Source of the DNA: Streptomyces sp. Z26
GTDB taxonomy: Bacteria; Actinomycetota; Actinomycetes; Streptomycetales; Streptomycetaceae
Length of the DNA: 64,000 bases
Assembly: GCF_003665095.1 (NCBI RefSeq)
Contig: NZ_RCHV01000002.1
Span: 4,202,501-4,266,500, forward strand
Direction of reading: 5' to 3'
Shown here piece after piece: positions 3,787-50,788 of the stretch. A program made the position numbers and the translations under genes. A model generated the notes under the pieces. That model saw only the letters and a list, made by a program, of their open reading frames with translations. It was not told the origin of the DNA and did no database searches. Each line of letters opens with the position of its first letter. Within the stretch, counting starts at the first letter, position 1.

Positions 3787-4422
3787 GTGGCCGTGCCCGC
3801 CGCCCGTCGCCCCGCCCGCCTCGTCGTGCTCGTCTCCGGCGCCGGCACGAACCTCCAGGCGCTCCTCGACACGATCTCCGTACAGCACGTCATCGGCTAC
3901 GGCGCGGAGATCGTCGCCGTCGGCGCCGACCGGCACGGCACCGAGGGGCTGGAGCGCGCGAAGCGGGCCGGTATCCCGCAGTACGTCTGCCGGGTGGAGG
4001 ACCACGCGTCCCGCGAGGAGTGGGACGCGGCGCTGACCGCCGCCACCGACGCGTACGAGCCCGACCTGGTGATCTCGGCGGGCTTCATGAAGATCGTCGG
4101 CAGGGAGTTCCTGGGCCGCTTCGGGGGGCGCTTCGTCAACACGCACCCCGCGCTGCTGCCGAGCTTCCCCGGCGCGCACGGTGTACGGGACGCGCTCGCG
4201 TACGGCGTGAAGGTGACCGGCTGCACCGTCCACTTCGTCGACGAGGGCGTCGACACCGGCCCGATCATCGCCCAGGGCGTGGTCGCGGTGCGGGACGAGG
4301 ACGACGAACCCGCTCTGCACGAGCGGATCAAGGAAGTCGAGCGACGGCTGCTCGTCGAGGTCGTCGGGCGCCTGGCGCGTGACGGCTACCGCATCGAGGG
4401 ACGAAAGGTAATGATCCCGTGA
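3787..4422 (+). CDS. purN: phosphoribosylglycinamide formyltransferase (GART)
   Basis: This enzyme transfers a formyl group from 10-formyl-tetrahydrofolate to GAR, the third step of IMP synthesis. The 211-residue length is normal. The N-terminal [16 protein letters not shown] phosphate-binding loop is present, as are the catalytic residues Asn118 and His120 (in [12 protein letters not shown]) and Asp156 (in GVDTGPI). The GTG start at 3787 follows a purine-rich GAGAGGGAG stretch. Its stop overlaps the purH start by four bases (GTGA), so the two are a translationally coupled purNH operon. The promoter should lie in 3529-3786. Confidence 0.96.
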
Positions 4423-5981
4423 CCGCCGAAGGTACGAAGCGGCCCATCCGCCGCGCGCTGATCAGCGTCTACGACAAGTCCGGTCTGGAGGAGCTGGCCC
4501 GGGGACTGCACGAAGCGGGTGTGGAGCTGGTCTCCACCGGTTCGACGGCCGGGCGCATCAGGGCGGCCGGGGTACCCGTCACCGGCGTCGAGGAGGTCAC
4601 CGGCTTCCCCGAGTGCCTCGACGGCCGGGTGAAGACGCTGCATCCGCGCGTCCACGCGGGCATCCTGGCGGACCAGCGGCTGGACAGCCACCGGCAGCAG
4701 CTGAACGAGCTGGGGGTGGAGGCGTTCGAGCTGGTGGTCGTGAACCTGTACCCGTTCCGGGAGACCGTCGCCTCCGGCGCCGCGCCCGACGAGTGCGTGG
4801 AGCAGATCGACATCGGCGGCCCGTCGATGGTGCGCGCGGCGGCGAAGAACCACCCGTCGGTCGCCGTCGTCGTCAACCCCGAGCGCTACCCGGAGCTGCT
4901 GGCCGCGGCGAACGGCGGCGGCTTCGCGCTGGACGAGCGGAAGCGGCTGGCGGCAGAAGCGTTCCAGCACACGGCCGCGTACGACCTGACCGTCGCGACC
5001 TGGTTCGCGCTCGACTACGCCGCCGTCGACGACTCGCCGTTCCCCGACTTCCTCGGCTCCGCCTACCAGCGCGCCGACGTGCTGCGCTACGGCGAGAACC
5101 CGCACCAGCCCGCCGCGCTCTACGCCACCGGCAACGGCGGTCTGGCCGAGGCCGAGCAACTGCACGGCAAGGCCATGTCGTTCAACAACTACACCGACAC
5201 CGAGGCGGCCCGCCGCGCGGCGTACGACCACGACGAGCCCTGCGTCGCGATCATCAAGCACGCCAACCCCTGCGGCATCGCGGTCGGCGCGGACGTGGCC
5301 GAGGCGCACCGCAAGGCGCACGACTGCGACCCGCTGTCGGCGTACGGCGGCGTGATCGCCGTCAACCGGCCGGTGTCCGCGGCGATGGCGGAGCAGGTCG
5401 CGGACATCTTCACCGAGGTGATCGTCGCGCCCGCGTACGAGGACGGCGCGGTCGAGGTGCTCAGCCGGAAGAAGAACATCCGGGTGCTGCGCTGTCCCGA
5501 GGCGCCGTCCGACCCCGTCGAGATCAAGCCGATCGACGGCGGCGCGCTCCTCCAGGCCACCGACCGGCTCCAGGCCGACGGTGACGACCCGGGCCACTGG
5601 CAGCTCGCGGCCGGTCCCGAGCTGTCCGGCGAGGAGCTGGCCGAGCTGGCGTTCGCGTGGCGTGCCTGCCGTGCCGTGAAGTCGAACGCGATCCTGCTCG
5701 CCAAGCACGGCGCGACCGTCGGCGTGGGCATGGGCCAGGTCAACCGCGTCGACTCCGCGAAGCTCGCGGTGCAGCGGGCGGGCGAGGAGCGGGCGACCGG
5801 TTCGTACGCCGCGTCCGACGCGTTCTTCCCCTTCCCGGACGGGCTCCAGGTGCTGACGGAGGCGGGCGTCACGGCCGTCGTGCAGCCGGGCGGTTCCGTA
5901 CGGGACGAGGCCGTGATCGAGGCGGCGAAGGCGGCCGGGATCACCATGTACCTGACGGGGACGCGGCACTTCTTCCACTGA
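4419..5981 (+). CDS. purH: bifunctional AICAR formyltransferase / IMP cyclohydrolase
   Basis: It carries out the last two steps of de novo purine synthesis, AICAR to FAICAR to IMP. The 520-residue protein has the N-terminal MGS-like cyclohydrolase fold ([19 protein letters not shown]) and the C-terminal transformylase domain, including the Lys280-His281 pair in IIKHANPCG. It ends LTGTRHFFH, as is typical for PurH. The GTG start overlaps the end of purN. A strong hairpin terminator follows at 6026-6071. Together with folD downstream, this groups one-carbon and purine metabolism. Confidence 0.97.
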
Positions 5982-41993: not shown

Positions 41994-43178
41994 TCACGTC
42001 GCGAACGCCTTGCGCAGCCGCGGCGTCAACGGCCGCTCCACCAGCCTGTGCAGCAGCCACGCCAGCAGCAGCAGACCACCGATCGCCAGCGGCAGCACGG
42101 CCCACGACGGCAGCCCGAAGTCCCGGTGCAGGACGCGCACGACGACCCAGCCGAGGTGCTCGTGCACCAGGTAGAACGGGTACGTGAGCGCGCCCGCGAC
42201 CGTCAGCCAGCCCCAGTCCGCCCACTGGAAGCGGCCCAGGGCGATGGCGGCCACCAGCACGTAGCCGAGGGTCACGACGGCGATGATGCCGAGCGACGAG
42301 CGGTACGCGAACGGCGAGTCGGCGACCGGCCGCCACAGGCTGGCGACGGCGTAGTGCTGGCCGATCAGCCAGCTGCTGACGACGATCGCCCAGGCCGTCG
42401 CGTCGTGCCCGAAGCGGTGCACCAGGTGGAGGCCGACGCCGCCGATGAAGAACGGCGCGTACTCCGGCATCACGACCAGCGTCAGCGGCTCCCAGTCCGA
42501 CGCCTGCGCCAGCACGGCGGCCATCATCCAGCCCGCGCAGAAGAACACGACGCGCCGCCGGGTGGCACCGGGGATGACGACGAACAGCGCGAAGAGCAGG
42601 TAGAAGCGCATCTCGACCCAGAGCGTCCAGTCGACGCCCAGCACGCGGTCGGTGCCGACGGGCTCCTGGAGCATCGTGAGGTTCACCAGCATGTCGCTGG
42701 GCGACACCGCCTCGTACGTCACCCAGGGCAGCGCGAAGACCAGGGTGACCAGCACCACGGCCGCCCAGTACGCGGGCATCAGCCGCGAGATCCGGGAGGC
42801 GGTGAAGGCGCGCAGGCCGCGCCCCCAGCCGCTCATGCAGATCACGAAGCCGCTGATGACGAAGAAGACGTGGACGCCCAGGCAGCCGTACGAGAACAGC
42901 TGCGACAGCGTCGGGAACTGCTGGGACGGCGAGGAGCCCCAGGCGTCGGTGATCTCGCCGTTGCGGCCGCCGAGGTGGTAGCAGGCGACCATCAGCGCCG
43001 CGACCAGGCGCAGCCCGTCCAGCGCGCGCAGCCGGGGCGGCCCGGACCGGCGGGCGGTGGCGCGCTCCCGTGGCGGGGCCGACGTGGCCGCCGCCGAGGT
43101 GGGGGCGGCCGGGGCGGTGGACGCCCCGGTCAGGCGCGCGGCGGTACCGGCGACCGCCGCGGTTATCGGGACGCTCAT
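41994..43178 (-). CDS. acyltransferase family 3 (OafA-like) membrane protein
   Basis: A 394-residue integral membrane O-acyltransferase with about ten hydrophobic segments. The family start RLRALDGLRLVAALMVACYH and GVHVFFVISGFVICMS are present, including the conserved His and Arg regions, and the C-terminus is basic. Such enzymes acetylate cell-surface sugars. It is the last gene of the leftward arm of the nonulosonic-acid locus, so it may decorate that polymer. It is 90 bp from the polysialyltransferase-like gene. Confidence 0.85.
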   Translation of the reverse strand: MSVPITAAVAGTAARLTGASTAPAAPTSAAATSAPPRERATARRSGPPRLRALDGLRLVAALMVACYHLGGRNGEITDAWGSSPSQQFPTLSQLFSYGCLGVHVFFVISGFVICMSGWGRGLRAFTASRISRLMPAYWAAVVLVTLVFALPWVTYEAVSPSDMLVNLTMLQEPVGTDRVLGVDWTLWVEMRFYLLFALFVVIPGATRRRVVFFCAGWMMAAVLAQASDWEPLTLVVMPEYAPFFIGGVGLHLVHRFGHDATAWAIVVSSWLIGQHYAVASLWRPVADSPFAYRSSLGIIAVVTLGYVLVAAIALGRFQWADWGWLTVAGALTYPFYLVHEHLGWVVVRVLHRDFGLPSWAVLPLAIGGLLLLAWLLHRLVERPLTPRLRKAFAT

Positions 43179-43268
43179 GTCGACGTACTCATTTCCCCGT
43201 GCTCCGAACGTGTTCGCTCGCCGTGCTCGTCCCGCCGTGCCTGCTCCGGCGTCCCCGCGTCGGCGCGC

Positions 43269-44636
43269 CTACTTCAGCGTGCTCCGCTTGATGGCCCGCG
43301 CGTGCCGGGCGACCCTGCGCACCACGGCGTTGCGCGGCAGGAACGACAGCTGGGCCGGTACGGCGCCGGGCAGCCCCAGCGCGGTGAGCCTGCGCCGCTT
43401 GAAGTACGTCCAGGTGCGCTCGTCCAGCCGCGTCGACAGGTACTGCTCCGCCTCCGGCCGCAGCCCCGGGTAGATCTGCGCCTGCATGCAGAAGCCGACC
43501 GCCCGCACCAGCCCGGTGAGGTCGCGCCGTACCGCCTCCGCGTCCGGCGTCCGCCAGGACTCCACGGCCGCCGGGTCGGCGAGGTCGGGCAGCAGCGCGT
43601 CCACGAGCGTGACGGGGACGCGGTTGCTGTTCTGGTACGGCGTCAGCCGCTCCAGCAGCAGGTCCGTACCCGTACGCGCGACGCGCAGCCCGTAGAACGC
43701 CGACGCCGTCATCAGCGCCGTGGAGAAGCAGCCGACGACGAGCGCCGGGCGCAGCCGCTCGTACAGCACCTCCGCGAGCACCGGGTCGTCCAGCACGGTG
43801 AGTTCGACGCCCAGCTCCCCGGCCTCCTTCTCCAGTACGCGGGACTGGCGGGCGGGTGCCACCGGGTGCGGCTTGAACACCACGCGGCGGTGGCCGAGGG
43901 CGACGGCACCGCGCAGCATCCGTACGTGCAGCCGCTCCTCCTCCTCGGCGGAGAGGATGTCCAGCGCCGAGAGGTACTGCCCCAGCAGCAGCGCCGGTGC
44001 CGGGCCCTGCCCCACCTTCGCGGTGACGGACTCCGGGACGTCCTCGGTCAGTTCGGCCAGCACGTCCCGGAACGCGTCGGTGGGCACCGTCTCCGGCGCC
44101 ACCCCGAACTCGGTGAGCAGCAGCGGGCGCAGGCCCGGCAGCAGGTCCAGGTGGAGCACGCGGCGGACCCGGGTGCCCACCAGCGGGTCCAGCTTGTTGC
44201 GCGTCGGGCCGTAGCTCATCAGCCCGTCCGCGTACACGTCGATCGGCGCGTCCGGGAACATCTGGCAGAGCGCCAGCGCCGGGTTGACCTGGATCGACTC
44301 GACGACCAGCTCGACCGCGTCCTGGTGCGGCTCACCGAGGCCCCAGAGCAGCCGCAGATGGCGCTCCCACAGCGGCACGTCGTCGCCGCGCGGGGACCAG
44401 CCGCCGGGGTGGAACGGGCGGATCGTCTCGTTCCACGACAGCACCCGGTCGAAGCGGTCGCGCAGCCGCTCGAAGCCCGCCATCCGGTCGAGCGCGGGCG
44501 AGGTCTCGGGCGTCGCGGCGTTGTTGCTGACGAGCAGCAGCCGCCGGTCGGCGGAGTCGAAGCAGCCGGAGTCCAGGGCGGCGGCCAGGGTGGCGGCGCC
44601 GTAGAGGGACGAGGCGAAGAAGATCTGCGTACGCAT
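43269..44636 (-). CDS. polysialyltransferase-family glycosyltransferase
   Basis: The 455-residue protein begins MRTQIFFASSLYGAATLAAAL and carries SALYGLRV-like and KPHPV motifs (RRVVFKPHPVAPARQS, ALVVGCFSTALMTAS), the HP and SS-type motifs of bacterial polysialyltransferases and CDP-alcohol polymerases (GT-B fold). It ends in a basic membrane-associating tail. It probably polymerises or transfers a nonulosonic acid from the CMP sugar made by the neighbouring genes. Its ATG overlaps the stop of the family 2 glycosyltransferase. Confidence 0.75.
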   Translation of the reverse strand: MRTQIFFASSLYGAATLAAALDSGCFDSADRRLLLVSNNAATPETSPALDRMAGFERLRDRFDRVLSWNETIRPFHPGGWSPRGDDVPLWERHLRLLWGLGEPHQDAVELVVESIQVNPALALCQMFPDAPIDVYADGLMSYGPTRNKLDPLVGTRVRRVLHLDLLPGLRPLLLTEFGVAPETVPTDAFRDVLAELTEDVPESVTAKVGQGPAPALLLGQYLSALDILSAEEEERLHVRMLRGAVALGHRRVVFKPHPVAPARQSRVLEKEAGELGVELTVLDDPVLAEVLYERLRPALVVGCFSTALMTASAFYGLRVARTGTDLLLERLTPYQNSNRVPVTLVDALLPDLADPAAVESWRTPDAEAVRRDLTGLVRAVGFCMQAQIYPGLRPEAEQYLSTRLDERTWTYFKRRRLTALGLPGAVPAQLSFLPRNAVVRRVARHARAIKRSTLK

Positions 44637-45610
44637 CAGGCGGCCGCCTCCGCGTTCACCGGGCGCCTGCGCAGGCGGCGCAGCCGGGACGCGCGCTGCA
44701 CGTCCATCGAGTCGAGGGCCTCGGTGAGCACGTCGGCGGGCAGCCGCTTCAGTGCCGCGGCGCTCATCTGGCGCAGCTTGCGTGCCACTTGCGGTTCGAA
44801 CCTTCCGCTGCTCAGGTGGTGGGAGATGATCGCGCAGTACGTGCGTACGGCCTTCGGCAGCAGCTTGTCCGCCTCCGGGTCGCGGGACGTCTCGTCGATC
44901 ACCCGGTCGAAGGCGGTGATGAAGTCCAGCTGCCGCACGTCCCCGATCTGCGTCAGCGACGACGCGACGCCCCGCCGGTAGAAGACGCCGGTCAGGCCGA
45001 CCACGGCGAACGACTTCGCCTCGCGGTGCAGCCGCCAGATCCACGGCCGGTCCTCGGCGGTGCGCAGACCGTCCACGAAGTGCAGCAGCCCGTCGTCGAG
45101 GAGCCTGCGGTGGTAGATGCCCGCCCAGGCGTACGCGTAGTCGACGGAGGTCGTGCGGTCGGCGGGCAGGATCGCGTCCCGGGGGCTCAGTACGACGCCC
45201 CGGCGGCCGTGCGGCACGCGCGAGAGGGTGCGGGCGCGGCCGGTGCACTGGACGTGGTCCGTGCGCACGAAGTCGCAGCCGAGGCCCTCGATGGTGTCGA
45301 GGAGCTGGCGGTAGTAGCCCGGGGCGAGCCAGTCGTCACCGTCGAGGAACGTGACGTACTCGCCGTTCGCCGCGTCCAGTCCGGTGTTGCGGGCGGTCGC
45401 GAGGCCGCCGTTCTTCTCGTGCCGCACCCGCACCACGCCCCGGATGTCGCGCTCGGCGCGTTCCAGGATTTCCGGTGTCCCGTCGGACGAACAGTCGTCG
45501 ACGAGAATGAATTCGAAATCCGCGCGCGCGTTGGCCTGCAGACTTCTGAGGGTGTCCAGGGCATAGGACTGCACGTTGTAGAACGGCACGATGACGGAGA
45601 GCTTGACCAC
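44636..45610 (-). CDS. family 2 glycosyltransferase
   Basis: A 324-residue GT-A enzyme. KLSVIVPFYNVQSYALDTL opens the nucleotide-binding domain, EFILVDDCSSDGTPEIL and GGLATARNTGLDAA follow, and the metal-binding DxD is in FLDGDDWL. The C-terminal half resembles teichoic-acid-type GT2 enzymes. It likely adds a hexose or GlcNAc to the glycopolymer repeat. The GTG at 45610 has no clear ribosome binding site. First gene of the leftward arm. Confidence 0.88.
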   Translation of the reverse strand: MVKLSVIVPFYNVQSYALDTLRSLQANARADFEFILVDDCSSDGTPEILERAERDIRGVVRVRHEKNGGLATARNTGLDAANGEYVTFLDGDDWLAPGYYRQLLDTIEGLGCDFVRTDHVQCTGRARTLSRVPHGRRGVVLSPRDAILPADRTTSVDYAYAWAGIYHRRLLDDGLLHFVDGLRTAEDRPWIWRLHREAKSFAVVGLTGVFYRRGVASSLTQIGDVRQLDFITAFDRVIDETSRDPEADKLLPKAVRTYCAIISHHLSSGRFEPQVARKLRQMSAAALKRLPADVLTEALDSMDVQRASRLRRLRRRPVNAEAAA

Positions 45611-45797
45611 CCGCGAGACATTAGGTGTCCGCCCGGCATTCGTCTTGACCTGCGGAGTACGCGCGGGTGAACGCCGTGTGGCGGAATGGTTAACCCACCG
45701 GCCGGGCAAGGCGGTTGGCCGGACGTCGATCCGCTGTTAACCGTCTGTTGTACTGGCGTTGGGCCGCGAAACGAAATGCCTTCCTAGCGTCGGTGAC
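45611..45797. promoter_or_regulatory. divergent promoter region of the nonulosonic-acid locus
   Basis: The 187 bp gap between the two arms is AT-richer than its flanks and contains GTTAACC twice in direct orientation (45689-45695 and 45735-45741). TAGCGT at 45785-45790 stands seven bases before the rightward GTG and could be the -10 of a leaderless message. Both arms are likely co-regulated here. Confidence 0.45.
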
Positions 45798-47207
45798 GTG
45801 CCCACTCGTACTTCTGAACCCGCCACCTCCCCGGTCCGGGTCGCCGTTCTCGCGGACTCCGACACGCGCTGGAAATGGGGCGTGCTGACCGCCCGCCGAA
45901 TCGCTCCGGACGCCCGGATCGAGGGCCTCCTGCTGCGCGGCCGGGCCACCCCGACCCCGCGCCAGCTCGCCGAGGTGGGCGTCGAGGTCGACTCCGTACG
46001 GGAGGTCACCGGCACGCACTTCGTCCGTACGGCCGGGCGCGACGCGTACGACGTGATCGTCCTCGCCTGCGTCGGCGGCGCCGTGCAGGCGATGGTGCAC
46101 GGTCTCGCGGCGAACGCGCGGGCCGCCGCCGGGGCCGGGGACACGGCGGGGGCCCGCCGCCCGGTGCTCGTCACCGGCTACGTGGGGATCGTCTACGAGA
46201 AGCTGGCCGACGGCCTGCTGCTCCGGCACGGCGCCGACATGGTGCTCGCCAACTCCCGCTACGACGCCGAGCGGTTCCGCGCGGTGTACGAGGGGGTCGG
46301 CGCGGACGGCGGGAGCGTCGTCGAGTGTGCCCTGCCCTTCCTGGGCGGCACCGGGCCGCGTCCGGACGGGGGGCCGGACGCGGTCGGCACGGCCGGGAAG
46401 CCCGCCGGTTCCCACCCGTTCACCGTGGCGTTCGCCGTCCAGCCGTCCGTACCGGACAACCGCGGCGACCGCGCGTACCTGCTCCGCCGCGCCGCCGAGC
46501 ACGCCCGGCTGCACCCGGACCGCGAGGTGCTGGTGAAGCTCCGCAGCAAGCCGGGCGAGCACACCACGCACATCGAGGAGGAGCCGTACCAGCGGCTCGC
46601 CGAGCGGCTGCCCGGCGGCCTCCCCGCCAACTGCCGCCTGGTGTACGGGCACATGGGCGAGGTCCTGGACCGTACGGACCTGCTCGTCACCGTCAGCTCC
46701 ACGGCCGCCCTGGAGTCCCTGCACCGCGCGGTGCCCACCGCCGTCCTCACCGACCTCGGCGTCCGCGAGGCCCTCGGCAACCACCACTTCCTCGGCTCCG
46801 GCTGCCTCGTCTCCTGGGACCAGCTCGACGCGGGCGAACTGCCGAAGGCCGACCCGGGGTGGACCGCCCGGCAGGGCGTCTGCCCGACCGACGGCGGCGC
46901 GGCCACCTCGTACGCGACGGCGTTCGACACCGCCCGCGACCACCTCGCGGACCTCGTCGCGCGCGACAGCCTGCCGCTGCCCGCGCCCTTCTACACCCCG
47001 GCCACCGCGCCCGGCTACCTGCCGCGGGTCCTCGCCCGCTACGGCTTCGCGCCCGACGGCACCCCCCGCCCCGGCACCGACACCGCCGAGGACGCGACCG
47101 GCATGCGCCGGGCCGTACGGAACGCCGTACGCGAGGCGGCGCGCGGCGCGTACCGGCACGGCGTCCAGCGCGTCGCCCCGGTGATCCGCCGGATGGGGGA
47201 GCTGTGA
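45798..47207 (+). CDS. DUF6716-like putative glycosyltransferase
   Basis: The 469-residue protein from the GTG at 45798 has a GT-B-like pattern: an N-terminal VRVAVLADSDTRWKWG, a central VLVKLRSKPGEHTTH, and the LLVTVSSTAALESLHRAVPTAVLTDLG motif that in this fold binds the sugar nucleotide. It matches, from memory, DUF6716 proteins beside neuA/neuB in streptomycetes. It probably transfers a sugar in the glycopolymer. The stop overlaps the next GTG (GTGA), so the products are made in step. Confidence 0.7.
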   Translation: MPTRTSEPATSPVRVAVLADSDTRWKWGVLTARRIAPDARIEGLLLRGRATPTPRQLAEVGVEVDSVREVTGTHFVRTAGRDAYDVIVLACVGGAVQAMVHGLAANARAAAGAGDTAGARRPVLVTGYVGIVYEKLADGLLLRHGADMVLANSRYDAERFRAVYEGVGADGGSVVECALPFLGGTGPRPDGGPDAVGTAGKPAGSHPFTVAFAVQPSVPDNRGDRAYLLRRAAEHARLHPDREVLVKLRSKPGEHTTHIEEEPYQRLAERLPGGLPANCRLVYGHMGEVLDRTDLLVTVSSTAALESLHRAVPTAVLTDLGVREALGNHHFLGSGCLVSWDQLDAGELPKADPGWTARQGVCPTDGGAATSYATAFDTARDHLADLVARDSLPLPAPFYTPATAPGYLPRVLARYGFAPDGTPRPGTDTAEDATGMRRAVRNAVREAARGAYRHGVQRVAPVIRRMGEL

Positions 47208-48538
47208 GCACGTCCGACCACCAGGCCGCACAGGCCGCGAAGGGAACACAGATGGCACACCCCGAGCCGACGGCAGAACCCGCCGCCGTACGGAACGACG
47301 GCGTCGGGGAACAGCACGTGCTGGCCGTCATCCCCGCGCGCGGCGGCTCGAAGGGCGTGCCCGCCAAGAACCTCGCCGAGGTCGGCGGCGTCCCCCTCGT
47401 GTCCCGCGCGGTGCTCGCCTGCCGGGCGGCCCGCCTCGTCACGCACGTCGCCGTCTCCACCGACGACGCCTCCATCGCCGCCGCCGCGCGCGCGGCGGGC
47501 GCCGAGATCGTGGAACGCCCCGACGACATCGCGGGCGACCTGGCCACCAGTGAGGCCGCCGTACTGCACGCCATGGACACGCACGAGGCGCGGCACGGGC
47601 ACCCCGTGGACGCGGTGCTGCTGGTGCAGTGCACCAGCCCGTTCATCGCGGCGGAGGACATCGAGGGCGTCACGGCGGCGGTCGTCGAGGGCGGCGCGGA
47701 CAGCGCGCTCACGGTCGCCGCGTTCCACGGCTTCGTCTGGCGCGACACCGACCGCGACACCCACCGTGACGCCCACCGGGGGAGCGCCGCCGAGCGGGAC
47801 GCCGTCGGCGTCAACCACGACAAGGCGTTCCGCCCCCGCCGCCAGGACCGGCCGCAGGACTTCCTGGAGACGGGCGCCGCGTACGCCATGGACGGCCCCG
47901 GCTTCCGCAAGGCGGGCCACCGCTTCTTCGGCCGCACCGAGACGGTCCGTACGGACCCGGCGCGCGTGCTGGAGATCGACGACCCGCACGACCTCGCCCG
48001 CGCGCGTGCTCTCGCGCCGCTCCTCGACGCGGGCTCCGAAACGACCGCGGCGGCGGCCCCGCGCCCCACGCGCGCCGACATCGACGCGGTCGTACTCGAC
48101 TTCGACGGCACCCAGACCGACGACAGGGTGCTCGTCGACTCCGAAGGACGGGAACTGGTCGCGGTGCACCGCGGCGACGGCCTCGGCATCGCCGCGCTCC
48201 GCCGGGACGCGCTGAAGATGCTGATCCTGTCCACGGAGCAGAATCCGGTCGTCGCCGCACGGGCGAACAAGCTCAAGATCCCCGTGCTGCACGGCATCGA
48301 CCGGAAGGACCTCGCACTGCGCACCTGGTGCGAGGAGCAGGGCATCGCGCCGGAGCGCGTGCTCTACGTCGGGAACGACGTCAACGACCTGCCGTGCTTC
48401 GACCTCGTCGGCTGGCCCGTCGCGGTCGCGAGCGCACACGACGTCGTACGCGGCGCGGCCCGCGCGGTCACCTCCGCACCCGGTGGTGCCGGCGCGATCC
48501 GCGAGATCGCCTCGTGGGTCCTCGGCCCCTCTCTCTGA
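47204..48538 (+). CDS. fused CMP-nonulosonate synthetase and KdsC-like phosphatase
   Basis: The 444-residue bifunctional protein has two parts. Residues about 38-270 are a CMP-sugar synthetase of the NeuA/KdsB type, with the nucleotide loop IPARGGSKGVPAKN at 43-56 and the family TSPFI region. Residues about 285-440 are a HAD phosphatase of the KdsC type (Asp299 and Asp301 in DFDGT; GNDVNDLPC). It should remove the phosphate of a nonulosonate-9-phosphate and activate the free acid as the CMP sugar. GTG 47204 is coupled to the gene before; an ATG at 47252 is an alternative. Confidence 0.85.
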   Translation: MSTSDHQAAQAAKGTQMAHPEPTAEPAAVRNDGVGEQHVLAVIPARGGSKGVPAKNLAEVGGVPLVSRAVLACRAARLVTHVAVSTDDASIAAAARAAGAEIVERPDDIAGDLATSEAAVLHAMDTHEARHGHPVDAVLLVQCTSPFIAAEDIEGVTAAVVEGGADSALTVAAFHGFVWRDTDRDTHRDAHRGSAAERDAVGVNHDKAFRPRRQDRPQDFLETGAAYAMDGPGFRKAGHRFFGRTETVRTDPARVLEIDDPHDLARARALAPLLDAGSETTAAAAPRPTRADIDAVVLDFDGTQTDDRVLVDSEGRELVAVHRGDGLGIAALRRDALKMLILSTEQNPVVAARANKLKIPVLHGIDRKDLALRTWCEEQGIAPERVLYVGNDVNDLPCFDLVGWPVAVASAHDVVRGAARAVTSAPGGAGAIREIASWVLGPSL

Positions 48539-48582
48539 CCCCCCTCAGCCCTCAGCTCCTAGCAGAAGGAACCCCTCTCCTC

Positions 48583-49500
48583 ATGACCAACAGCAACCGC
48601 CTCCGGACCCTGGGTGACAAGACCGCCGGACCCGGCCAGCCCGTCTACATCACCGGTGAGATCGGCATCAACCACAACGGTGACCTGGAGAACGCCTTCA
48701 AGCTGATCGACGTCGCCGCCGAAGCGGGCTGCGACGCGGTCAAGTTCCAGAAGCGCACGCCCGAGATCTGCACCCCGCGCGACCAGTGGGACATCGAGCG
48801 CGACACCCCCTGGGGCCGGATGACGTACATCGACTACCGCCACCGCGTCGAGTTCGACGAGGACGGCTACCGCGCTATCGACGAGCACTGCCGCAAGGCG
48901 GGCATCCACTGGTTCGCGTCGCCGTGGGACACCGAGGCCGTCGCGTTCCTGGAGAAGTTCGACCTCCCGGCGCACAAGGTCGCGTCCGCGTCGCTGACCG
49001 ACGACGAGCTGCTGCGCGCCCTGCGGGCCACCGGCCGTACGGTCATCCTCTCCACCGGTATGTCGACGCCGAAGCAGATCCGGCACGCGGTCGAGGTCCT
49101 GGGCAGCGAGAACATCCTGCTCTGCCACGCCACGTCGACGTACCCGGCCAAGGCCGAGGAACTCAACATGCGGATGATCCACACCCTCCAGGCCGAGTTC
49201 CCGAACGTGCCGATCGGCTACAGCGGCCACGAGACGGGCCTCCAGACGACCCTGGCGGCCGTCGCGCTCGGCGCCACGTTCGTCGAGCGGCACATCACCC
49301 TCGACCGCGCCATGTGGGGCTCCGACCAGGCCGCCTCCGTGGAGCCGCAGGGCCTCCAGCGCCTCGTCCGCGACATCCGCACCATCGAGGAGTCGCTCGG
49401 CGACGGCGTCAAGAAGGTCTACGAGAGCGAGCTGGGCCCGATGAAGAAGCTGCGCCGCGTCCAGGGCGTCGTGGCCGACGCCGAGCCCGCGACCGTCTGA
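48583..49500 (+). CDS. nonulosonic (sialic) acid synthase, NeuB family
   Basis: The enzyme condenses phosphoenolpyruvate with a mannose- or ManNAc-type sugar to a nine-carbon keto acid. The 305-residue protein shows the NeuB barrel: ITGEIGINHNGDLENAFKLI, AGCDAVKFQKRTPEI, HWFASPWD, KVASASLTDDELL, STGMST, CHATSTYPAK, IGYSGHETG and ERHITLDRAMWGSD. It ends soon after the barrel and lacks the usual C-terminal SAF (antifreeze-like) domain of about 60 residues. AGAAGGA precedes the ATG. No UDP-GlcNAc 2-epimerase (NeuC) is nearby, favouring Kdn-type products. Confidence 0.9.
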   Translation: MTNSNRLRTLGDKTAGPGQPVYITGEIGINHNGDLENAFKLIDVAAEAGCDAVKFQKRTPEICTPRDQWDIERDTPWGRMTYIDYRHRVEFDEDGYRAIDEHCRKAGIHWFASPWDTEAVAFLEKFDLPAHKVASASLTDDELLRALRATGRTVILSTGMSTPKQIRHAVEVLGSENILLCHATSTYPAKAEELNMRMIHTLQAEFPNVPIGYSGHETGLQTTLAAVALGATFVERHITLDRAMWGSDQAASVEPQGLQRLVRDIRTIEESLGDGVKKVYESELGPMKKLRRVQGVVADAEPATV

Positions 49501-49513
49501 TCCGGCCGACGCG

Positions 49514-50788
49514 TTGAGCCACGCCGACACAGCCCCCGAGCCGGACCCGGCCGAGCCGCGCGTCGACGCGCGCCGCGCCGGGCCGGCCCGGGGGGACGGT
49601 CGCTACGCCGCCACCCTCGCGTTCGTGGAGAGCCCGGTCCAGCTGCTGAACGTACTGGAGTGGGCGCACACGAGCACGGGGCCGGCGGGGCAGGACACCG
49701 GGCCGTACGGGGACACCCGGCGGCCCGGGGACACGGGCCCGGCCGGGGACGCCGGGCGGCCCGACGGGGCGGGACGGCAGCGGCGCCGGACGGGCTGGTC
49801 CGGCAAGGCGCGGGCGTCGGCGGGTGCCCGGCCCGCGTTCGAGCTGGACGTCGTGATCCTGCCGCCGCACGACCCGATGACCCGCGGCCAGCTGCGCCGC
49901 ATGGCCGAACTCGCCCGCGACGAGGGGCACTCGGTCCGGTGGGCGGAGGCGCGCGGCGGCGCGTCCGCGCCCCTCAAGACGCTCTCGTCGCTGGCCCGGC
50001 CGCTGCGCCGCGCGTCGCGGATCGTCATCGGTGACCCGTTCTCGCGCTACGTGCAGCTGCTGCTCAACCTCACCGCCGCGCGGGAGGTCGTCGTGGTCGA
50101 CGACGGCACCGCCACCATGGAGTTCGTCGGCCAACTGGCCCGCGGCGAACGGCTCACCCGCTGGCACCGCAAGGGCGCCGGCGGGCCGGTCGCCGTGCTG
50201 TACGGGCCGGTGTCGCACCGCGCGCGGCGGCGGCTGACACCGACGGGCGGGCGGCGCGTCGAGGTGTTCAGCTCGATGCCGGTGGACGACACCGTCGCCG
50301 AGCTGGGCGTCACCGTCCGCGCGAACGACTTCGCCTGGACCCGCTCCCGCTTCGGCCCGCCCCGCCTCACCGGCGGTACGGACCTGGTCGGGACGTCGCT
50401 GGTGGAGACCGGGGTCGTCGACACGGACCGGTATCTGGAGGCCGTCGCCCGGCTCGCCCGCGAGCACGGCGCCACGCGCTACTTCGCACACCGCCGGGAG
50501 AGCGCCCAGAAGCTGCACCGGGTCGCGAACGGCGCGCAGCTGGAGATCGTACGGCCGGACCTGCCGCTCGAACTCGTCGCCCGGCGCGGACCGATCGGCC
50601 ACACGATCCTCAGCTTCCCCTCCACGGTGGTGCACACCCTGCCGCTGGCGCTGGCGGGCACCGACGTGAAGGTCGCCGTGTGCGACGTGGACCCGGCGTG
50701 GCTGACGGAGCAGGCGTCGCCGCGCGCGCAGGGGTTCCTGTCGGGGGTCACCGGCACGGCGCGGGCGGCGCACCGGCTGCCGTCGTGA
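49514..50788 (+). CDS. putative polysialyltransferase-like protein, unrecognised
   Basis: A 424-residue protein with a TTG start at 49514 (no GTG or ATG upstream in frame, no clear ribosome binding site), 13 bp after neuB. It shows a FVESPVQLLNVLEW beginning, a Gly/Arg/Pro-rich insertion, VVVVDDGTATMEF, YFAHRRES and GHTILSFPSTVVHTLPLAL. These resemble GT52/polysialyltransferase-like proteins, though weakly. Its place directly after neuB suggests it uses the CMP-nonulosonate. Tandem repeats follow its stop. Confidence 0.55.
   Translation: MSHADTAPEPDPAEPRVDARRAGPARGDGRYAATLAFVESPVQLLNVLEWAHTSTGPAGQDTGPYGDTRRPGDTGPAGDAGRPDGAGRQRRRTGWSGKARASAGARPAFELDVVILPPHDPMTRGQLRRMAELARDEGHSVRWAEARGGASAPLKTLSSLARPLRRASRIVIGDPFSRYVQLLLNLTAAREVVVVDDGTATMEFVGQLARGERLTRWHRKGAGGPVAVLYGPVSHRARRRLTPTGGRRVEVFSSMPVDDTVAELGVTVRANDFAWTRSRFGPPRLTGGTDLVGTSLVETGVVDTDRYLEAVARLAREHGATRYFAHRRESAQKLHRVANGAQLEIVRPDLPLELVARRGPIGHTILSFPSTVVHTLPLALAGTDVKVAVCDVDPAWLTEQASPRAQGFLSGVTGTARAAHRLPS

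Follow-up and report, generated by a model that had tools for sequence, protein, structure and literature searches.

The 64,000-nt window from Streptomyces sp. Z26, by which we mean the whole stretch of DNA analysed, contained seven genes between positions 41994 and 50788, arranged in two divergent arms, the left on the minus strand and the right on the plus strand (Table 1). ORF and profile searches recovered, in place, every gene of the seven-gene, two-armed locus described in the original prediction, which was silent on the absence of a SAF domain from NeuB, on the PHO boxes between the arms and on the likely nature of protein X. The GT2 gene opens the left arm and the DUF6716 gene opens the right arm.

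Table 1. Genes and promoter features of the locus, in window positions, with S. coelicolor counterparts by gene order.
Feature	Position	Strand	S. coelicolor counterpart	Evidence
Membrane acyltransferase (Acyl_transf_3)	41994..43178	-		PF01757 6.6e-26
Polysialyltransferase-like GT (PST)	43269..44636	-	SCO4877	PF07388 3.9e-30
GT2 glycosyltransferase	44636..45610	-	SCO4878	PF00535 4.2e-32
PHO-box-like array, towards GT2	45651..45694	-		four 11-nt units GTTAACCATTC/CGCCACACGGC/GTTCACCCGCG/CGTACTCCGCA
PHO-box-like array, towards DUF6716	45725..45768	+		units GTCGATCCGCT/GTTAACCGTCT/GTTGTACTGGC/GTTGGGCCGCG
DUF6716, putative GT-B glycosyltransferase	45798..47207	+	SCO4879	PF20471 6.8e-109
NeuA CMP-sugar synthetase + HAD fusion	47252..48538	+	SCO4880 (provisional)	PF02348 9.5e-19
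NeuB catalytic barrel, 305 aa	48583..49500	+	SCO4881 (provisional)	PF03102 8.8e-82
Sialyltransferase-fold protein X	49514..50788	+	SCO4882	AlphaFold2 model, motifs

A NeuB scan of genome contigs picked up at least 582 relatives, and the best 80 of these were kept; with the window added, this gave 81 loci. Among these best 80 relatives, tblastn detected NeuA in 80/80, protein X in 78/80 and DUF6716 in 76/80, and the six misses (DUF6716 and X) were all at contig ends. Each contig-intact locus among the 80 kept DUF6716, NeuA, NeuB and X together, while the left arm was variable. Because the right-arm genes recur across the 80 relatives and the misses are contig ends, the arrangement is not due to chance. 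X, DUF6716 and NeuB also co-occurred in 18 of 20 same-genus genomes, and in the same two genomes the searches missed all three.

In 65 of 68 loci the motif GTTCAYY sat 62 (±1) nt from the start of GT2, against a control chance rate of ~0.0009 per slot, and in 61 of 68 GTTVACY sat at the same distance, 62 (±1) nt, from the start of DUF6716. Within the DUF6716-side array, GTTMACCNNNNGTTG occurred once in the window as compared to 0/100 shuffles; a looser two-unit pattern for the GT2-side array was without significance within the window. PhoP may bind both putative 11-nt-repeat arrays between the arms, which would turn both arms on.

By gene order and literature, the locus is this strain's counterpart of the S. 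coelicolor SCO4873-SCO4882 teichulosonic-acid cluster, for which Ostash et al. 2014 is reportedly the reference. The core finding is therefore not new; what is new is the shortened NeuB, predicted to make Kdn, a relative of sialic acid, and the sialyltransferase-like protein X, which had previously gone unrecognised. In the literature SCO4873-SCO4882 appears as the teichulosonic-acid cluster (PMC13011467) and is reported to be a PhoP target induced in S. coelicolor by phosphate shortage; its S. lividans counterpart is likewise cited (PMC8003754), and the Streptomyces polymer is said to consist of galactose and Kdn (PMC11481543). These citations bear out the link between a related S. coelicolor region and Kdn-containing teichulosonic acid that the original prediction had made. 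The S. coelicolor annotation gives SCO4877 as hypothetical, SCO4878 as a glycosyltransferase, SCO4879 as conserved hypothetical, SCO4880 as a transferase and SCO4881 as polysaccharide biosynthesis, followed by SCO4882 (PMC2267785, PMC8269224), and the window order agrees with SCO4877-SCO4882 by this published annotation. The NeuA and NeuB numbers are only provisional because a Planobispora table sets "sialic acid synthase" against SCO4880, not SCO4881. The left arm has three genes here (the GT2/PST pair and the acyltransferase) versus six numbers, SCO4873-4878, in S. coelicolor. A further likeness to the S. coelicolor cluster, for which PhoP control has been reported, lies in the PHO boxes between the two arms.

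The window NeuB matched PF03102 with 274.6 bits (cut-off 22.1) but gave no match to SAF (PF08666), the protein stopping where SAF would begin. NeuB was 297-326 aa long in 81/81 loci, and SAF matches were seen in 0/9 scanned members of the SAF-less group (window included) versus 17/17 other NeuBs; in the tree, the SAF-less NeuBs formed one clade with support 1.0. Against TIGR03569, the N-acetylneuraminate synthase equivalog, the window protein scored 254.7 bits, below the cut-off of 399.65. In the N. meningitidis enzyme, Arg314 of the SAF domain contacts ManNAc and may place its N-acetyl, and R314A is inactive (PMC6795526); the window NeuB has no Arg314 because the SAF domain is absent. Of 13 ligand-contact residues taken from the same source (PMC6795526), 11 could be aligned. 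Seven of these were kept and four changed: along with the catalytic barrel, E25, Q55, K129, Y186, S213, H215 and E234 are common to N. meningitidis NeuB (1xuu, 4ipi and others) in 81/81, whereas N74 is replaced by G, T110 by S, F112 by W and N184 by S in 81/81. Phe288 of the meningococcal enzyme lies outside the aligned region. K53 and D247, which we take to be further active-site positions of meningococcal NeuB, were conserved in 81/81. The SAF-less NeuB is probably a Kdn-9-phosphate synthase, as predicted from these features.

In the genome (assembly 94.8% complete), which has a single NeuB, no match was obtained for NeuC/WecB-type epimerases (PF02350) or NanE, so the absence of NeuC noted for the locus holds genome-wide; mannose-6-phosphate isomerase is present. 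PF02350 matches were likewise absent from seven of the nine NeuB-bearing same-genus genomes sampled (this strain included), and the epimerase in the other two counts against the Kdn reading. That reading is strengthened because NeuC/WecB-type and NanE proteins gave no match, the isomerase is present, the HAD motifs are intact and SAF is lost, and the same features support the original suggestion, at the level of sequence, that the sugar would be Kdn made from a mannose phosphate. One alga is known to have a Kdn-9-P synthetase that is specific for Man-6-P, and the route Man-6-P to Kdn-9-P to Kdn to CMP-Kdn is described for Bacteroides thetaiotaomicron and Prymnesium parvum (PMC6200933). The same three steps are predicted here, with the phosphatase fused to the CMP-sugar synthetase; the likeness is to the pathway as that source describes it.

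Within the HAD part of the NeuA fusion, the KdsC model aligned at residues 276-424 and the KDN-9-P phosphatase model at 280-424, both below their cut-offs (73 bits against 180 for NF058599, the KDN-9-phosphatase equivalog), and PDB 3mmz matched at 4.7e-89. Because NeuB and HAD both score below NCBIfam cut-offs, family membership does not settle exactly which substrates they use. One locus (L002) carries a NeuA without the HAD part. In vertebrate CMP-sialate synthetases the HAD half has a structural or regulatory role, and a phosphate-free route to Kdn, with NeuB taking free mannose and the HAD half serving such a role, would accommodate both the low phosphatase score and L002. We regard this route as unlikely, since the HAD catalytic motif pattern is intact in 80/81 loci, the window protein included, and since outside the genus HAD adjoins the SAF-less NeuB in 7/8 genes and SAF-bearing NeuBs in 0/17 (short flanks, biased sample). 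In the phosphorylated route to Kdn, the SAF-less NeuB would form Kdn-9-phosphate from mannose-6-phosphate and PEP; the HAD half would dephosphorylate this to Kdn, and the NeuA half would convert Kdn to CMP-Kdn.

Protein X, described as unrecognised in the original prediction, indeed gave no sequence or profile match in Pfam, NCBIfam or PDB, but its AlphaFold2 model (pLDDT 81) resembles a bacterial polysialyltransferase. Foldseek matched the model to 5wcn (5.9e-7), and it aligned with the Mannheimia haemolytica polysialyltransferase (5wc6, 5wcn; GT38) over 320 residues with a Z score of 19.0, versus ~13-13.7 for generic GT-B folds. The order of the DDG, His and S/T motifs is the same in the two proteins, with spacings of 129 and 44 in X versus 138 and 48 in the M. 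haemolytica enzyme, although they are only 13-14% identical and lack a sequence-profile match. D196-D197-G198 was invariant in 38 aligned sequences and two distant homologues. The HP motif reads HR in X, with the His conserved, and so departs from the HP of GT38, GT52 and GT80. Judging from the model, X is probably a CMP-Kdn-dependent transferase, and would transfer Kdn from CMP-Kdn; the parts of the literature surveyed name no gene for this step.

With these proposed steps, the locus very probably builds a teichulosonic acid that contains Kdn, a wall polymer free of phosphate and made in phosphate scarcity. PF07388 proteins also serve capsules, and among the seven genes Pfam and NCBIfam searches recognised no exporter, teichoic-acid exporter, LCP ligase or other wall ligase, as would suit a Kdn polysaccharide that is secreted or capsule-like and has no link to peptidoglycan. 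This is rather improbable, as both counterparts, in S. coelicolor and in S. lividans, are cited as cell-wall glycopolymer clusters (PMC13011467, PMC8003754) and the reported induction by PhoP is in keeping with a polymer that takes the place of teichoic acid.

In 26/26 genomes with an over-cut-off DUF6716 match, one copy lay within ~2.2 kb of a NeuB match. The closest folds to the DUF6716 model were UDP-GlcNAc 2-epimerases (Z up to 19.8, rmsd 3.3, 305 aligned), and hhalign linked the two through a nucleotide-binding C-terminal half that they have in common (probability 76, 90 columns). The DUF6716 protein had no PF02350 match, PF20471 being its sole Pfam family at E up to 0.1. These likenesses and the constant proximity to NeuB would suit a cryptic NeuC-like epimerase supplying ManNAc for a Neu5Ac-type, N-acetylated nonulosonate, which we consider least probable of all: GT-B glycosyltransferases score little below the epimerases (MGD1 17.4; BshA and MurG 16.1); the profile alignment, covering only the C-terminal 90 columns, ends before HRRE(N/S), which was not seen by eye, and near that place 11 DUF6716 sequences read FAxQxxVP (equivalence by position, not alignment); NeuB has lost the domain that probably holds the N-acetyl group; the HAD phosphatase would be needless; and the published Streptomyces polymer is described as containing Kdn (PMC11481543). 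For a Kdn polymer, DUF6716, as a GT-B enzyme, would instead add the partner sugar that forms the backbone with the Kdn added by X.

The locus would represent a widely conserved Streptomyces surface-polymer system within the phosphate-starvation response. A different, teichuronic-acid-like Streptomyces wall polymer has been shown to act as a receptor for umbrella toxins (PMC13274773), a case that gives such polymers wider interest. Should the SAF-less NeuB prove to be a dedicated Kdn-9-phosphate synthase, the absence of SAF together with NeuA-HAD and DUF6716 would mark out genomes for Kdn polymers, and X would offer a testable candidate Kdn transferase. We see an even chance that actinomycetes hold a dedicated branch of nonulosonate synthases that lost SAF on specialising for mannose-6-phosphate and that is accompanied by two transferase families of its own, DUF6716 and X, the latter a cryptic CMP-Kdn transferase. 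In this view DUF6716, NeuA-HAD, NeuB and X form a minimal Kdn-polymer module, which in some species has no left arm and in others has gained GT2/PST pairs and acyltransferases. If so, polymer type could be predicted from genome sequence.

Because the left-arm genes vary in presence, the GT2/PST-like pair and the acyltransferase may decorate the polymer with variable side groups or with O-acyl groups. Of the 65 loci whose left flank reaches at least 6.5 kb, the one in the window among them, only 32 had an acyltransferase homologue, on either strand, to the left of DUF6716, so that this gene looks like an optional decoration; it is predicted probably to O-acylate the polymer. The GT2 and PST pair was present in 59/65 left arms. 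In the PST-like protein, T306 was invariant and H257, P258 and S305 nearly so (alignment A3, n=23). Two GT2/PST pairs were observed in S. malachitofuscus (L024) and in S. toyocaensis (L019).

The seven genes of the original prediction were all recovered in their two arms. The coding features and two promoter arrays are listed in the table. To the left lie an FAD monooxygenase and a TetR gene and to the right an M20 peptidase, a Bmp lipoprotein and an ABC transporter, and both flanks look unrelated to the locus. Export of the polymer and its attachment to peptidoglycan are not accounted for by the seven genes; we infer the order in which the transferases act in polymer assembly.

Genes and candidate regulatory arrays of the locus in the Streptomyces sp. 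Z26 window
Feature	Coordinates	Strand	Remarks
Acyl_transf_3 protein	43178-41994	-	left arm
Polysialyltransferase-like protein, PF07388	44636-43269	-	left arm
GT2	45610-44636	-	left arm
PHO-box-like array	45651-45694	-	GTTCAYY anchor before GT2
PHO-box-like array	45725-45768	+	GTTVACY anchor before DUF6716
DUF6716	45798-47207	+	right arm
NeuA-type synthetase fused to HAD phosphatase	47252-48538	+	right arm
NeuB	48583-49500	+	right arm
X, without family	49514-50788	+	right arm

A NeuB scan of named genomes placed the nearest relatives of the window NeuB in Streptomyces. At least 582 relatives were detected, and loci were compared for the best 80; the record titles of these name Streptomyces in 78 cases, [Kitasatospora] papulosa in one and Microtetraspora glauca in one. 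The gene order of the last (L042) is the same as in its Streptomyces neighbours, and the strain is possibly mislabelled. The comparison with other Streptomyces genomes, proposed with the original prediction, found the right arm conserved: in these best 80 of at least 582 loci, tblastn detected homologues of DUF6716 (PF20471) in 76, of NeuA in all 80 and of X in 78, and the arm was complete in every locus not interrupted by a contig end. Left arms were counted in 65 loci with a left flank of at least 6.5 kb, window included. GT2 and PF07388 homologues were both present in 59, each of them doubled in six; five left arms had no GT2, PF07388 or acyltransferase gene, and one had a divergent PF07388 gene alone. 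The acyltransferase was found in 32 of the 65, on either strand. Within the flanks surveyed, the right arm looks like a core, to which the left arm seems to add a variable set of decorations.

The link to Kdn teichulosonic acid in S. coelicolor is borne out by the literature, which names SCO4873-SCO4882 as the teichulosonic-acid biosynthetic cluster, under PhoP control (PMC13011467; S. lividans counterpart, PMC8003754), and gives galactose and Kdn as the composition of the Streptomyces polymer (PMC11481543). In an S. coelicolor table, SCO4877 is hypothetical, SCO4878 a glycosyltransferase, SCO4879 conserved hypothetical, SCO4880 a transferase and SCO4881 a polysaccharide biosynthesis protein (PMC2267785); the likeness of this cluster to the present locus was judged from published annotation tables. 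Assignment of NeuA and NeuB to SCO numbers is provisional, because the corresponding Planobispora table matches "sialic acid synthase" to SCO4880 (PMC8269224). The same table includes SCO4882 among Pho-regulon counterparts (PMC8269224); a search of open-licence papers gave no description of the role of SCO4882. Actinorhodin output was reportedly lower in SCO4878 mutants. The locus is a conserved, already published system, and the finding is sound; the parts worth following up are the synthase without a SAF domain and protein X.

Kdn had been proposed from the lack of a NeuC gene in the locus, and this absence extended to the whole source genome (6.50 Mb in 3 contigs, 94.8% complete), in which neither PF02350 (NeuC/WecB) nor NanE had a match and a type I mannose-6-phosphate isomerase was present. 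Among 118 genomes sampled from the class, 11 belonged to the same genus, source genome included, and 8 of these had no PF02350 match; among the nine of the genus with NeuB, it was missing in seven and present in two. The HAD catalytic motifs were kept in 80 of 81 NeuA-HAD proteins (80 named loci and the window). The sole exception, in S. oceani (L002, near 4300-5171), has a NeuA that has lost its HAD half, and tblastn over the 16 kb locus gave no HAD match. An alga is described as having a Man-6-P-specific Kdn-9-P synthetase (PMC6200933).

DUF6716 was considered as a cryptic NeuC. Its model (pLDDT 75) resembled UDP-GlcNAc 2-epimerases most (Z up to 19.8), with GT-B glycosyltransferases ranking next. 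In profile comparison with 10 epimerases (recovered from 10 of 30 loci), the C-terminal nucleotide half alone aligned (probability 76, 90 columns), and the motif FAxQxxVP seemingly takes the place of the epimerase HRRE stretch. A UDP-sugar glycosyltransferase is the favoured assignment, and a cryptic NeuC is very improbable. All 26 genomes with an over-cut-off DUF6716 match had one copy, by coordinates, no more than about 2.2 kb from a NeuB match; one (G172) had an additional copy elsewhere. The control E. coli genome also gave an over-cut-off match, which was unexpected for a family otherwise found near NeuB in actinomycetes here.

NeuB was 297-326 aa long in all 81 loci. The short proteins stop near KLRR, where other NeuBs run on with RRSL and about 60 residues; the SAF domain (PF08666), C-terminal in typical NeuBs, was matched by Pfam in 17 of 17 other NeuBs versus none of nine short ones scanned, window NeuB included. 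In a study of meningococcal NeuB, Arg314 sits in the SAF-type domain and is said to contact ManNAc, perhaps placing the N-acetyl group, and the R314A enzyme is inactive (PMC6795526). That study lists 13 contact residues: all 81 window-type NeuBs conserve seven, four are altered (N74 to G, T110 to S, F112 to W, N184 to S), and the remaining two belong to the missing domain or lie beyond the aligned part. We infer that loss of SAF would go with Man-6-P as the substrate. A search of open-licence papers gave no description of a SAF-less NeuB.

A FastTree phylogeny of 34 NeuB proteins placed all 17 SAF-less members in a single clade (support 1.0). Outside the genus, HAD and DUF6716 genes both adjoined seven of eight SAF-less neuB genes and either adjoined none of 17 SAF-bearing genes, a count biased because six of the eight loci were obtained through DUF6716 or X searches. 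It covered short flanks, leaving out L088 (frame not recovered) and most other listed NeuB matches; all eight SAF-less genes were also in the NeuB listing. A separate HAD-motif pattern was over-strict for loci outside the genus and is not counted as evidence. On contig C3 of genome G265 (L102), a SAF-less NeuB had neither HAD nor DUF6716 in its short flanks; the same genome has NeuB, HAD, DUF6716 and X on contig C4.

Among 68 two-armed loci, window included, 61 had GTTVACY at 62 (±1) nt ahead of DUF6716, 65 had GTTCAYY at 62 (±1) nt ahead of GT2, and 59 had both anchors; the chance expectation per slot was below 0.001. The S. coelicolor PHO box consists of two 11-nt repeats with core GTTCACC (PMC4415409), and both window arrays fit as candidate PHO boxes by sequence. 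GTTMACCNNNNGTTG occurred once in the window and in 0 of 100 shuffles; a looser minus-strand array pattern was not significant (three window matches, as many in 11 of 100 shuffles). The fixed-position counts of the two anchors were adopted because scoring of two-unit PHO boxes separated the window poorly from controls (window 11.1; 190-nt controls, 95th percentile 10.6, largest 16.1).

Spacing between the divergent arrays in the 59 loci was 62/63 (12 loci), 74 (29), 84/85 (4), 95 (11), 106 (2) and 610 nt (1). Apart from the outlier at 610, spacings near 63, 74, 85, 95 and 106 (45611-45797 and 67 homologous loci) differ by steps of about 10.7 nt, one helical turn, and, on a tree built for 57 of the 59 loci, the classes require at least five changes. 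The spacings look as if helical phase were preserved, and the two promoters may be coupled, the phasing being suggestive only because its period was fitted after inspection of the data.

Protein X had no match in Pfam or NCBIfam, and a PDB profile search returned nothing. Profile comparisons with the PF07388 protein and DUF6716 gave no sequence relation, so the assignment of X uses its predicted fold and its motifs alone. The top match of its AlphaFold2 model (pLDDT 81, pTM 0.81, 38 sequences) was Mannheimia polysialyltransferase (Foldseek 5.9e-7; Z 19.0 over 320 residues, rmsd 5.5), followed by other sialyltransferases (14.5, 14.3); no epimerase or generic GT-B protein scored above 13.7. X shares with bacterial sialyltransferases the D-D-G motif of the catalytic base and also the S/T pair, but its HP motif keeps His and has Arg in place of Pro, and X was for that reason kept out of a named family. 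Judging from fold and motifs, X probably works in a sialyltransferase-like way.

X was present in 20 of 396 phylum genomes: 18 of the 20 of the same genus (source included), all with NeuB and DUF6716, and two others, in which X lies near NeuB. The two same-genus genomes without an X match also showed neither NeuB nor DUF6716. One genome of the genus (G285) carries two sets of NeuB, X and DUF6716, on contigs C9 and C19. In the window X, a low-complexity segment of about 50 residues (about 55-105) is inserted that five compared homologues lack, and pLDDT of the model falls under 50 at residues 59-92.
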